A stretch of 41,812 nucleotides of DNA from Bacillota bacterium (lineage in GTDB: Bacteria > Bacillota > Clostridia > Oscillospirales > Acutalibacteraceae), in contig JAETPP010000006.1 of assembly GCA_021771115.1 (NCBI GenBank), positions 1 through 41,812 of the forward strand. The letters run 5' to 3'. Shown here piece after piece: positions 1,291 through 41,812 of this stretch; positions within the stretch are counted from its first letter, which is position 1, and each line of letters begins with the position of its first letter. A program made the position numbers and the translations under genes. Under the pieces are notes generated by a model. The model was not told where the DNA came from, searched no databases, and saw only the letters and a list, made by a program, of their open reading frames with translations.

Positions 1291-1595
1291 AGGTAAATTT
1301 TAGTTTAGCGCTCACCCTTGGCCCCCCTGAAAGGGGGGCTGTCACGGCGAAGCCGTGACTGGAGGGTTCCGTGCGGCAAGCTGGAACCCCTCCGCCATGC
1401 TATCGCATGGCCCTCCTCCCCTTTCAGGGGAAGCAAGGGTTTTCTGCTTTTTGATAGCCCGTCAAATTCCAATTTACCGCACTACTTCCACTATCATTAC
1501 CTAGAAAAAGAATCCCATCCAGCAAAAACCGGCGCAAAAGCCCTTGCCCCAACGCCCTTCTCCAGAATCCAGAATCCAGCATCCAGTATCTAGTA
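1291..1595. repeat. Mosaic intergenic repeat element R1
   Basis: This gap holds one copy of the window's mosaic repeat family. The left end (1292-1309, GGTAAATTTTAGTTTAGC) and an inward-facing right end (1463-1477, CAAATTCCAATTTACCG) bracket a stem-loop module (1312-1443) that starts CCCTTGGCCCCCCTGAAAGG and ends with CCCCTTTCAGGGGAAGCAAGG. The module contains two inner hairpins: GTCACGGCGAAGCCGTGAC, and GCCATGCTATCGCATGGC. Downstream are a shared AACCGGCGCAAAAGCCC block (about 1526-1550) and a short tandem of CCAGAATCC/CCAGCATCC/CCAGTATC units (1563-1591) that abuts the recG stop. No gene is expected here. Confidence 0.8.
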
Positions 1596-7097: not shown

Positions 7098-7330
7098 AGG
7101 GTACACGTATGTGACAAGAGGGTACACGCATGTGTACCCTCTGAGCGTGTCGAAAAAGCTTTTCGCCACGCTCAAACTTCTTGAGAAAATCTTTGATTTC
7201 CTCAAGAAGTTCTGATTGAAACGCGAGAGAGGGACCCTGATGGTCCCCTCTCACACTCTTCCCCCTTCTGTTTCTTACGGTTAGAGGGCTTATCGACAGC
7301 CTGAGAGGGTACACGTGCGTGTACCCTCTC
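7098..7330. repeat. Array of perfect hairpins between rny and the P-loop kinase gene
   Basis: At least five inverted repeats lie in 230 bases. They are AGAGGGTACAC/GTGTACCCTCT (7117-7142, 4-base loop) with a partial extra copy at 7098-7112; GAGCGTG..CGAAAA/TTTTCG..CACGCTC (7143-7173); AACTTCTTGAG/CTCAAGAAGTT (about 7174-7211); GAGAGGGACC/GGTCCCCTCTC (about 7225-7252); and GAGAGGGTACACG/CGTGTACCCTCTC (7303-7330). The first and last share the GAGGGTACAC core. None has a clear T-tract. The gap between the two genes is 306 bases with no credible coding sequence. Confidence 0.75.
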
Positions 7331-12289: not shown

Positions 12290-12770
12290 GGCCATAGTGT
12301 AGTGCTCACCCTTGGCTTCTCGCCTGTCGGCTCGGTCGGTTCGCACCAGCGTGCCACCGGCACGCGCTCACCCCTGAAAGGGGAGCTGTCACGGCGAAGC
12401 CGTGACTGAGGGGTTCCACGTGGCAAGCAGGGAAACTACAGGCTTTATGCGATTTTCAAGCGAGCTAGAACCCTTCCACCATGCAAAGCATGATCCCGCA
12501 GGTTGCGCAACAAACTGTTTCCCCTATTCAGGGGAGGCAAGGGTTTTGTGCTATTCGTCAGCTCTCTAAATTCCCAATTAACGCACTGGCTATCTCACTG
12601 TCATCCTGAGGAACATAAAAGGCGCTGTGCGCCTTCACGACGAAGGATCTCGTCCTTCCTTCCCGGGTAAAGGGGGAAAAAGAACGAGATCCTTCACTTC
12701 GTTCAGGATGACAGGAAGGGAGGTTCAGAATGACAGGAAGGGAGGCTCAGAATGACACCGAAGAGAGCCT
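12290..12770. repeat. Mosaic intergenic repeat element R2
   Basis: This 700-base gap holds a long mosaic copy and no credible gene. In order it has a CTCGCCTGTCGGCTCGGTCG block with a GCGTGCCACCGGCACGC hairpin (about 12319-12368), then the stem-loop module CCCCTGAAAGGGGAGCTGTC (12371) to CCCCTATTCAGGGGAGGCAAGG (about 12522-12543) with inner hairpins GTCACGGCGAAGCCGTGAC and CATGCAAAGCATG. Next come a right end CTAAATTCCCAATTAACGCAC (12565-12585) and a palindromic element (12597-12714). Degenerate tails of the last element (TTCAGAATGACAGG, CTCAGAATGACACC) repeat at 12724-12756. Confidence 0.8.
12597..12714. repeat. Palindromic repeat module B (MITE-like), copy 1
   Basis: The element opens ACTGTCATCCTGAGGAAC and closes GTTCAGGATGACAG, so its ends are inverted repeats. 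Inside, GACGAAGGATCTCGT is mirrored by ACGAGATCCTTC, and there is a small variable hairpin GGCGCTGTGCGCC. About 118 bases, no coding capacity. Related copies are at 18160-18300, 24820-24961 and, as a left half only, 25087-25140. Confidence 0.8.
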
Positions 12771-12898
12771 AGAGTGGCGGGAAGCGCCTGCTTCTGGGCA
12801 ATAAGACGGTATTTTTGATTTTTCAAACAGCCCCTGATGCTTATCGATAATATTTTTTGAAAAACGCTATCTTTGAAGTCCGGAAAGCAGCCTTGCCC

Positions 12899-16367: not shown

Positions 16368-16701
16368 AGTAATTAGAATTTAGCGCTCACTCTTGGCTTC
16401 TCGCCTGTCGGCTCGGTCGGTTCGCACCAGCGTGCCACCGGCACGCGCTCACCCCTGAAAGGGGAGCTGTCAGCCGATAGGCTGACTGAGGGGTTCTGTG
16501 TGGCAAGCTGGAACCCCTTCGTCACGGCTTCGCCGTGCCACCGAACGTTGCTCTCTGAGCAACGTTTCCCCTTCTCAGGGGAGGCAAGGGTTTTCTGTTA
16601 TTTGTTGGCACTGCTAAATCCCAATTTATCGCTTACTCCCGGTCGGGCTGTATACTTACAAATACCGCCTGCTGCCTTCACGAGCGGCAGCGCTGCCGCT
16701 G
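16368..16701. repeat. Mosaic intergenic repeat element R3
   Basis: This copy runs from a left end (AATTAGAATTTAGCGCTCAC, 16371-16390) through the CTCGCCTGTCGGCTCGGTCG block (about 16398) and its GCGTGCCACCGGCACGC hairpin. It continues through the CCCCTGAAAGGGG module (16453 to about 16590) and a right end CTAAATCCCAATTTATCG (about 16613-16631). Last is module C, CGGTCGGGCTGTATACTTAC (about 16641) with a terminal hairpin GCGGCAGCGCTGCCGC (about 16684-16699). Inner hairpins differ from R1: GTCAGCCGATAGGCTGAC, CACGGCTTCGCCGTG, and ACGTTGCTCTCTGAGCAACGT. It ends on the stop codon of the DUF711 gene. Confidence 0.8.
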
Positions 16702-18060
16702 CTAGTTTTTCAAGCTCTGCAAAGGCGCGGGGATCTTGCCGCCGCGGTGGATAAACTCCGCGGGAGAGGCGGGGTTTACCGCCATGATGGGCCCCTGGCC
16801 CAGCAGTCCGCCGAAATCCAGCTCGTCTCCGGCCTTTCTTCCCACGGCGGGGATCACCCGAACGGCGGTGGTCTTGGAATTCACCATGCCAATGGCCATT
16901 TCGTCCGCAATGATGCCGGAAATGATCTCGGGGGAGGTGTCGCCGGGAATGGCGATCATATCCAGGCCCACGGAGCAAACCGCCGTCATGGCCTCCAGCT
17001 TTGTCAGGGTCAGGCAGCCGCTGCGGGCGGCGTCGATCATACCGGCATCCTCGGTAACGGGGATAAACGCGCCGGAAAGTCCGCCCACGCTGGAGGAGGC
17101 CATCACGCCGCCCTTTTTCACCGCGTCGTTTAAGAGGGCCAACGCCGCCGTGGTGCCGTGGGCGCCGCACTGCTCAAGTCCCATGCCCTCCAGAATATGG
17201 GCCACGCTGTCGCCGATGGCGGGGGTGGGAGCCAGAGACAGATCTACAATGCCAAAGGGAACGCACAGCCGCCGGGAGGCCTCCTGGGCCACCAGCTGCC
17301 CCATGCGGGTGATCTTAAAGGCCGTGCGCTTGATAAGCTCGGCAATTTCCGTCAGAGTGCAGCCGCCGCCGGATTTTTCAATGGCGGCCCGCACCACGCC
17401 GGGGCCGGAAACGCCCACGTTTATCACACAGTCCGGCTCTCCGGGGCCGTGAAACGCCCCTGCCATAAAGGGATTGTCCTCCGGGGCGTTGCAGAACACT
17501 ACCAGCTTGGCGGCGCCGATGCACTCCCGGTCCGCAGTGCGCTCGGCGGTCTCCTTGACGATGCGGCCCATTTTCTCCACCGCGTCCATATTGATGCCGG
17601 CCTTGGTGGAGCCCACGTTGACAGAAGAGCAAACCAGCTCCGTTTCGGAAAGGGCCTGGGGAATGCTTTCCAGAAGGGCGTAATCTCCGGGCCCGAAGCC
17701 CTTCTGCACCAGGGCGGAATACCCGCCGATAAAGTTCACCCCCACCGTGTGAGCGGCCTTATCCAGGGCCCTGGCAAAGTGAACGGGGGAAGCGCCGGGG
17801 CAGGCCGCGGAGATCATGGCGATGGGCGTCACCGAAATGCGCTTGTTGATAATGGGGATCCCGTACTGCCGGCTGATCTCCTCCCCGGTGCCGACCAGGC
17901 GCTCCGCATAGCGGCAGATCTTGTCATAGACCTTTTGCACCGCCTTGTTGATATCGGGATCGGCGCAGTCCAGAAGGGAAATTCCCATAGTGATGGTGCG
18001 CACGTCCAGGTTTTCATTGTCGATCATATTGATCGTTTCCAAAATTTCATTGGTATTCAA
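16702..18060 (-). CDS. PFL family protein (DUF711/UPF0210)
   Basis: DUF711 proteins resemble pyruvate formate-lyase-type folds but have no established biochemical role. The 452-residue length is usual. Typical family segments are [20 protein letters not shown] near the N-terminus, [73 protein letters not shown] and [23 protein letters not shown] 18060 has AAAGGTGG about 9 bases upstream. The partner ACT-domain gene is upstream on the same strand, a pairing seen widely in Firmicutes, but here the two are separated by 424 bases filled by repeat element R4, so cotranscription is uncertain. The stop codon coincides with the end of element R3. Confidence 0.95.
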
Positions 18061-18076
18061 AAAAAGACCACCTTTA

Positions 18077-18409
18077 CTAGATGCTGGATGCTGGATACTG
18101 GATGCTGGAGAAGGGCAGGTGCGGTAGATTATAGTTTAGCACACTAACGACCCTTACACACTGTCATCCTGAGGAAAAAAGGCGCTTCGCGCCTTCTTGA
18201 CGAAGGATCTCGATTAGTAGTAACCGGCGCATTCAGAGGGATTTGTACCCGCTGGCTGAGCAAAAACCGAGATTCTTCGCCTTCGGCTCAGAATGACAGT
18301 AAGGAAAAGAGGCCGGTTTTACTTCCGGTCGGGCCGCACGCTTACAAATACCGCATGCTATTTTCACGAGTGGCTGCGGCGCCTCGCCGCTAAATTCCAA
18401 TTTATCGGT
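18077..18409. repeat. Mosaic intergenic repeat element R4
   Basis: The copy starts with a short tandem (18085-18112; units TGGATGC, TGGATAC) and has a left end GCGGTAGATTATAGTTTAGC (18121-18140). A palindromic module B follows (18160-18300) with an inserted AACCGGCGCATTCAGAGG block. Next is module C, CGGTCGGGCCGCACGCTTAC (about 18326), with hairpin GCGGCGCCTCGCCGC, and the element closes with the inverted end CTAAATTCCAATTTATCGG (18390-18408). It separates the ACT and DUF711 genes. Confidence 0.82.
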
Positions 18410-24645: not shown

Positions 24646-25215
24646 AGATGCTGGATACTGGATGCTAGATGCTGGATGATGGTGCCGCTGCTGCGCAGCG
24701 CATGGGAAAGAAAGGGTGAGGGAAGAGCGGTAAATTATTGTTTATTATATGGTTAGTCGTAGGGGAGGCTTTCCCTAAGTCGCTAAATTCCAATTTAACA
24801 CACTATCCACCCTCACTCTCTGTCATCCTGAGGAAAAAAGGCGCTTCGCGCCTTCTTGACGAAGGATCTCGGCTAGTACTAACCGGCGCATTCAGAGGAA
24901 TTTGTACCCGCCAACGACTACAAACCGAGATTCTTCACCGCTTCGCAGTTCAGAATGACAGTGAAAAAAGAGACAGGTTTCACTTTCGGTCGGGCCGCAT
25001 GCTTACAAATACCGCCTGCCATCTTCACGAGTTGGTGCAGCGGCACGCTGCTAAATTCCAATTTAACACACTATCCACCCCCACACACTGTCATTCTGAA
25101 CAAAAGCAAAGCTTGCTTTGCTTTCAGTGAAGGATCTCGGCCCGCAGCAACCGGCGCAAATGCCCTTGTCCTTAAAATTGCTCATTCCTCATTTCTAATT
25201 TTTCATTCTCCATTT
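24646..25215. repeat. Mosaic intergenic repeat element R5 (compound)
   Basis: No gene lies in this gap of nearly 600 bases. It holds a tandem of TGGATAC/TGGATGC units (24653-24680), then a short unit with both ends, GCGGTAAATTATTGTTTATT (24727-24746) and CTAAATTCCAATTTAACACAC (24783-24803). A full module B follows (24820-24961) with an inner AACCGGCGCATTCAGAGG block, then module C (about 24987-25047, hairpin GCAGCGGCACGCTGC) and a second right end (25051-25071). Next are a left half of module B with a different stem (AGCAAAGCTTGCTTTGCT) and an AACCGGCGCAAATGCCC block. Last is a light CATT/TAATTTTTCATT run (25178-25215) that overlaps the 3' end of the next gene. Confidence 0.8.
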
Positions 25216-41490: not shown

Positions 41491-41812
41491 ATTGAGCGGT
41501 AAATTGGAATTTAGCGGGCTGACGAATAGCGCAAACCCCTTGCCTCCCCTGAAAGGGGTGAGCACGCCCCAGTGGGGCGTTGACGCGAACCGACCGAGCC
41601 GACAGGCGAGACGGGGGACCATGCTTTGCATGGTGGAAGGGTTATAGCCCAGCTGCGATTTGCATAAAGCCTGCGTTTATCAACTTGCTGCCACGGAACC
41701 CCTCAGTCAGCCTTCAGCTGACAGCTCCCCTTTCAGGGGTGAGCGCGTGCCGGAAAGTTATAACTTTCCTGGTACGCTGGTGCGAACCGACCGAGCCGAC
41801 AGGCGAGAAGCC
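41491..41812. repeat. Mosaic intergenic repeat element R6 (runs off the window, inverted orientation)
   Basis: The copy starts with an intact end GCGGTAAATTGGAATTTAGC (41496-41515). It continues with CCTTGCCTCCCCTGAAAGGG, a hairpin ACGCCCCAGTGGGGCGT, the GAACCGACCGAGCCGACAGG block, ACCATGCTTTGCATGGT, then CCCCTCAGTCAGCC and GTCAGCCTTCAGCTGAC. Last come CCCCTTTCAGGGGTGAGCGC, a palindrome GGAAAGTTATAACTTTCC and a second GAACCGACCGAGCCGACAGG block reaching the window end. Module order is the reverse of R2 and R3, so it is inserted the other way round. Confidence 0.8.

Follow-up and report, generated by a model that had tools for sequence, protein, structure and literature searches.

A lineage-amplified mosaic of palindromic intergenic units bounded by two end forms in a Clostridial draft genome

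The window analysed here, a stretch of 41,812 nucleotides, belongs to a draft genome of 2,998,275 bases in 417 contigs that is 88% complete. Six gaps in the window are numbered 1 (1291-1595), 2 (12290-12770), 3 (16368-16701), 4 (18077-18409), 5 (24646-25215) and 6 (41491-41812); the original prediction saw in them one family of repeats with shared, inward-facing ends and exchangeable stem-loop modules. The features read in the gaps are given below. Module limits given with "about" are approximate, and ends located by pattern scan are marked as such.

1294 to 1307, plus strand: L end TAAATTTTAGTTTA of gap 1, with GC inward (scan)
about 1324 to 1440, plus strand: module A, nested hairpins, between the L and R ends of gap 1
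1463 to 1476, plus strand: R end CAAATTCCAATTTA of gap 1 (scan)
about 12318 to 12368, plus strand: module E (CTCGCCTGTCGGCTCGG...) within the left arm of a module A, gap 2
about 12371 to 12546, plus strand: module A, long form, gap 2
12567 to 12580, plus strand: R end of gap 2, indel variant TAAATTCCCAATTA
about 12600 to 12715, plus strand: module B (CTGTCATCCTGAGG ... CAGGATGACAG palindrome) after the R end, gap 2
16370 to 16382, plus strand: diverged L end TAATTAGAATTTA of gap 3 (identified by eye; the scan did not pick it up)
about 16399 to 16449, plus strand: module E within module A, gap 3
about 16451 to 16590, plus strand: module A, gap 3
16615 to 16628, plus strand: R end TAAATCCCAATTTA of gap 3
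16640 to 16702, plus strand: module C of gap 3, finishing at the stop codon of the adjacent gene on the minus strand
18125 to 18138, plus strand: L end TAGATTATAGTTTA of gap 4 (scan)
about 18161 to 18298, plus strand: module B, gap 4
about 18325 to 18389, plus strand: module C (CGGTCGGGCCGC ... TTCACGAGTGGC...), gap 4
18391 to 18404, plus strand: R end of gap 4 (scan)
24731 to 24744, plus strand: L end TAAATTATTGTTTA of gap 5 (scan)
24745 to 24783, plus strand: small module of 39 bp (GTAGGGGAGGCTTTCCC), gap 5
24784 to 24797, plus strand: R end common to two units, gap 5 (scan)
about 24819 to 24962, plus strand: module B, gap 5
about 24986 to 25050, plus strand: module C, gap 5
25052 to 25065, plus strand: second R end of gap 5 (scan)
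25087 to 25140, plus strand: partial module B past the last R end, gap 5
41500 to 41513, minus strand: R end of gap 6 (scan)
about 41540 to 41753, minus strand: modules A and E, gap 6
41770 to 41812, minus strand: module E cut by the contig end, gap 6

The prediction of inward-facing ends in all six gaps is confirmed overall, with gaps 2, 3 and 6 weaker than claimed: gap 2 has only the R end with an indel and no recognisable L end on its left side, the L end of gap 3 is diverged, and gap 6 shows one end and is cut by the end of the contig. Both ends enclose module A in gap 1 and modules B and C in gap 4, as had been read from the window, and the small unit of gap 5 has 39 bp between its ends, where about 35 had been given. 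Beside gap 2, at 12770-12845, lies another repeat with long inverted ends (GGGGCTGTTTGAAAAATCAAAAA...), which is also present at C56 (L005, about 980-1180).

The single 18-base end of the original prediction gives way to two distinct forms, L, found mostly at the left, and R, found mostly at the right, with a core that is a palindrome in itself. The L form reads TAAATTATTGTTTA followed by GC on its inner side, and the R form reads TAAATTCCAATTTA with GC before the core on the inner side. The ends are 14-18 bp long; the core of the joint is 14 bp and its fullest form seen is about 34-38 bp. Allowing at most one mismatch, the genome holds 140 copies of L and 135 of R, against 0 and 0 matches to the reversed patterns used as control, and the ends thus occur beyond chance genome-wide. 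L and the reversed R have TAAATT....TTTAGC in common, so that terminal inverted repeats are present. The arrangement of the ends was parsed in 105 islands (353,520 bases), which were picked around end matches, so that all island counts given here describe a sample and not a census. GC forms the two inner bases beside the core in 101 of the 126 R ends and 84 of the 100 L ends of the islands. In the 66 arrays that run from L to R, the first outer base is variable on both sides, whereas the second is usually the same: G at position -2 in 57 arrays and C at position +2 also in 57.

The islands contain 226 ends (126 R and 100 L), and pairs of neighbouring ends at most 600 bp apart delimit 106 segments, namely 70 L..R, 16 L..L, 14 R..R and 6 R..L. 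The L..R units measure 39-505 bp between their ends. Neighbouring ends within 600 bp point in the same direction in all 106 cases, and among the 15 spacings above 600 bp nine are in the same and six in opposite direction. Adjacent units have one end in common. Such hairpin-forming units make up much of the intergenic sequence of this bacterium. Two or more ends are present in 79 arrays, of which 66 run from L at the start to R at the finish; the rest differ, some of them at contig ends. Single-linkage clustering of the 106 segments yielded a B-type group of 48, an A-type group of 34, C units of 75-76 bp (six L..L and two R..R), and small groups or single composites. The two ends are identical over 14 bases in only 4 of 16 L..L and 4 of 14 R..R segments, and so few identical pairs give no direct sign that one end copies the other. 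No array lies inside a long frame (0/79), and the frames flanking the arrays are co-directional at 39, convergent at 18 and divergent at 6, the remaining 16 arrays being too close to the island edge.

Outer repeats of the D, T and Z types flank the arrays and are oriented inward in 46 of 46 cases on the left and 49 of 51 on the right. Simple repeats of the TGGATGCTGGA, TTAGTTGTTAG and CAATTAGTAATTAG types (e.g., L086, 2780-2855) flank arrays and face inward, as does a GCCTTGC...GCAAGGC hairpin. For an arrangement of nested palindromes, layered like an onion, type matching speaks neither for nor against, since the outer left and right types are not significantly matched: they agreed in 15 of 24 cases against 12.7 expected (p = 0.20), and under other distance settings in 15 of 23 against 12.4 (p = 0.14) and in 13 of 22 against 9.8 (p = 0.08).

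The two sides of an R end have largely separate histories. The type of module on the left of R (A, C or D) is independent of that on the right (B, E or other; chi-squared p = 0.64 in 95 of 126 R sites, the remainder being of rarer or unreadable types). Copy distances were correlated at the 42 R sites with B at the right. The halves of the left modules correlate with each other (rho 0.50, p 0.001; sites pooled, with type differences contributing), and so do the halves of the right modules (rho 0.40, p 0.001; sites pooled), whereas the four comparisons across R gave rho values of 0.05, -0.06, 0.12 and -0.03 (p 0.16, 0.86, 0.018 and 0.76, respectively), leaving one weak positive value (rho 0.12). 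A sites alone (n = 22) and D sites alone (n = 8) show the link within modules on both sides; C sites alone (n = 12) show it on the right (rho 0.35, p 0.012) but not on the left (rho 0.05, p 0.37). Nearest neighbours agreed at 15 of 42 sites within left modules, 3 of 42 within right modules and 0 of 42 in each comparison across R, a criterion that the low agreement within right modules makes informative for the left side only and weak if taken alone. An earlier version based on k-mer distances gave no link across R either. As the types are independent and the correlation is found within modules and hardly across R, R joins units whose histories are largely different.

Module A provides a view of the cargo outside this genome. 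Its 22-base core, with at most one mismatch, has 63 copies in the own genome and is present in 4 of 345 genomes of the order, the own one included; with at most two mismatches, the congener G015 has two copies and the other 27 congeners have none. Named genome contigs contain at least 97 stretches with module A, in metagenome-assembled genomes named Oscillospiraceae, Clostridiales, Clostridia, Ruminococcus and others. Among the matches listed, 86 copies in 80 analysed loci have flanks that are all distinct; 41 of them sit at most 120 bp after the right arm of another A and 45 do not. An end-like motif accompanies 7 of these 86 copies (2 of 86 for the reversed control) and 8 of the 11 own copies fetched by module A alone (control 0 of 11). 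A 23-base core of module A is present in four viral contigs, and none of the five copies of the module in viral contigs has an end-like motif. Because module A is free-standing in other Clostridia, it is here real cargo of the ends. The original prediction that the family captures or swaps stem-loops is thereby supported in part: one end system does surround several unrelated stem-loop modules in many combinations, with independent types on the two sides of R. In other lineages (JAJQGB, JAJQDP, JAJQFX and others among loci L130-L209), other short linkers, seen repeatedly within a lineage, connect the A copies.

Module E is placed inside A or inside B at differing positions and may be a small mobile hairpin in its own right that prefers certain sequences. 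By eye, E (e.g., 12318-12368 and 16399-16449) directly precedes a run of CCCC in one or the other arm of module A, and it is also seen in B.

The distribution of the R end among relatives is narrow. A scan of 60 genomes, the own one counted, with the R pattern and at most one mismatch found matches in six: the own genome, G015 (four copies, one mismatch each) and four members of the order (one each). The reversed R control gave one match in the same 60 genomes. Thus, 27 of the 28 congeners have no R match, and G015 is the exception. It is also the closest congener by the BLAST pieces seen, collinear with the window at 14.7-23.4 and 23.4-27.9 kb with 78-87% identity. At gaps 1, 3 and 5, the three sites that are cleanly comparable, G015 has other intergenic DNA and the element is absent; this DNA is too diverged for an exact element edge to be found at the empty sites. 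At gap 4, G015 has B-like and D-like repeats without an L/R unit, and of the six other congeners shown, five have nothing but a short spacer at this position. G015 does contain a few copies whose ends have drifted. The near-absence of R from relatives, together with the lack of elements from the compared gaps of G015, indicates that the system is amplified in this lineage.

Candidate targets and carriers of the ends were sought and rejected. If L and R were the halves of one target, their fusion should be found uninterrupted; the inner 22 bases of the fusion have no match genome-wide with up to three mismatches, a 26-base form allowed six mismatches in the islands has one match, which is an ordinary L end, and a looser gapped search of the islands gave eight matches, all single ends on inspection. 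No autonomous element carrying the ends emerged, the longest L..R interior being 505 bp within the 600 bp parse. At L086, a frame of about 0.9 kb lies between two arrays, outside the L..R units. An IS200-type gene, the only one in G015, has none of modules A, C, D and E near it, and loose scans around it yielded poor end-like and B-like matches, the end-like ones no better than chance; a 689-residue frame of the same genome gives one PF01548 match below threshold. Viral contigs hold no exact copy of the extended L and R patterns, and phages and plasmids gave no match to the gap 5 array.

We read the system as a lineage-specific intergenic mosaic of palindromic non-coding units delimited by L and R and joined end to end by a recombinase or transposase acting in trans, a reading to which we give about even chances. 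The L and R ends would be recognised by this putative enzyme, which may have been lost, may be missing from the draft, or may be of another family than the four searched. It would spread units to new intergenic sites and add further units at existing ends in a fixed direction, so that the ends might act as joints, much like the role proposed for dRS3 between RS modules in Neisseria. The diversity of the cargo would stem from palindromic repeats of external origin (A and, if read likewise, B, E and others) that landed within units flanked by ends or between them. Going from joints to an enzyme is an inference of ours, and insertion of ordinary miniature elements and general recombination are live rivals.

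The units could alternatively be ordinary MITEs, each L-X-R being a non-autonomous transposon mobilised by a transposase that recognises its terminal repeats, and the composites resulting from insertion of such elements and of other palindromic repeats into or beside each other in safe intergenic DNA. We consider this somewhat unlikely. It fits the 70 L..R units among the 106 segments, the inverted repeats at their ends, the absence of arrays from long frames and the different places of E inside A and B. However, insertion in random direction predicts that about half of the neighbouring ends should be opposite, and none of the 106 is; adjacent units also have one end in common rather than two. 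Target-site duplications, which the original prediction proposed to look for, were not convincing, with matching flanks of 1-9 bases showing no clear excess at the offsets examined for the 66 L...R arrays. The transposase-related families PF01609, PF13358, PF01797 and PF01548 each have 0 matches in the own genome, and the idea of spread without a transposase is unproven by this result, which covers only four families in a draft 88% complete.

A bolder form of the preferred reading, with an enzyme in trans, makes the ends true site-specific joints at which a dedicated recombinase would join hairpin cassettes, L to L and R to R and always in the same direction. Compatible with this are inner bases that are mostly fixed, a first outer base that varies, the L-left and R-right placement, the complete co-orientation and the largely unlinked flanks. 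We hold it to be clearly unlikely. If true, the joint system would be integron-like, built of folded non-coding DNA instead of genes.

General homologous recombination or gene conversion among hundreds of repeats might reshuffle the arrays without any site-specific enzyme, and independent R flanks and co-oriented arrays would then be expected. A length of 14 bp is short for RecA-type exchange, and the joint core is of just this length, with 34-38 bp at its fullest. Such exchange also leaves unexplained the placement of L at the left and R at the right, as well as the arrival of units at sites that are empty in G015, and we find it quite improbable.

Folding was examined for the units and for module A. 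Each of three L-A-R elements folds into a single long hairpin (-92.9, -97.4 and -94.1 kcal/mol), and L pairs with R at the base of the hairpin in all three. In 17 aligned own A elements, standard pairs fill 530 of 541 consensus-pair cells, and double changes occur at only 4 of 33 consensus pairs, so that covariation within the own genome is modest. Across Clostridia (loci L130-L209), the tip of module A has 44 distinct forms among the 72 of 80 loci that are readable, and these tips, counted from the base, are paired to 86% on average, compared with 12% for shuffled sequences. Module A (1324-1440 in the window, and in many Clostridia) has the look of a structured element whose tip varies but stays complementary. 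Such folds, together with the 18 convergent against 6 divergent intergenes, would agree with units kept as RNA or cruciform hairpins (terminators or transcript stabilisers), the mosaic being a by-product of selection for folding, but the patchy, lineage-limited distribution, the lack of an Rfam match at gathering scores in the window, the few double changes and the renewal of palindromes by template switching in DNA, which may also take place, make this very unlikely.

The closest described architecture that we found is that of the neisserial intergenic mosaic elements (NIME), and the present system may work like a NIME without being one. According to the account of these arrays (PMC3898611), dRS3, a 20 bp inverted repeat with the sequence ATTCCC-N8-GGGAAT and almost 700 copies, lies between RS modules of 30-160 bp in intergenic arrays spanning 200-2700 bp, and recombination between dRS3 copies by a phage integrase has been suggested. 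A short inverted repeat in high copy number between several module families in intergenic arrays is likewise seen here. Where the original prediction knew of no named description of the combined architecture, a similar one thus does carry a name: as described there, the NIME has a similar design and a different sequence. The ends here, TAAATTATTGTTTA and TAAATTCCAATTTA, are not dRS3, and the system is therefore not a NIME member. It also differs from the NIME in its two end forms and in full co-orientation within arrays, and the searches of viral contigs, phages and plasmids and for PF01548 turned up neither a phage nor an integrase connected with the ends.

Other composite repeats are more distant. 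Correia elements of Neisseria, as outlined in PMC3049150, are common and have an interior bounded by 26 bp inverted repeats, as here, but their interiors reach up to 156 bp, whereas here several unrelated interiors form chains with common ends. REP and BIME sequences resemble the present arrays as extragenic composites made up of short palindromes, whose number in a genome often exceeds 100 copies (PMC3733652). The REPs of BIMEs alternate in orientation (PMC2817692), unlike the constant direction found here (106/106), and a Y1-type (RAYT) transposase has 0 matches in the own draft genome. The pneumococcal BOX is also a composite modular repeat, described (PMC3049150) as boxA and boxC around a variable number of boxB, in contrast to the many unrelated modules with a common joint seen here. 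With MITEs as outlined in the same paper (PMC3049150), the units have in common that they are short, strongly folded and intergenic with terminal inverted repeats; the common ends, the chains and the lack of a target duplication set them apart.

No description of the L/R repeat was found by sequence string or by topic in one open-access literature collection, and none of module A by sequence string; the string matches listed were, judging by title, concerned with primers or binding sites. The system brings a Neisseria-like mosaic design to an unrelated group, amplified in one lineage. It has measurable rules, i.e., two end types, one direction and largely unlinked flanks, which make the assembly of composite intergenic repeats testable with sister strains. 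The analysis has also brought up module A, a widespread Clostridial hairpin. Elsewhere in the window, at 7117-7329, two 40-base inverted arms that are 88% complementary stand 133 bases apart, and each of them holds a GAGGGTACACG...CGTGTACCCTC-type palindrome.
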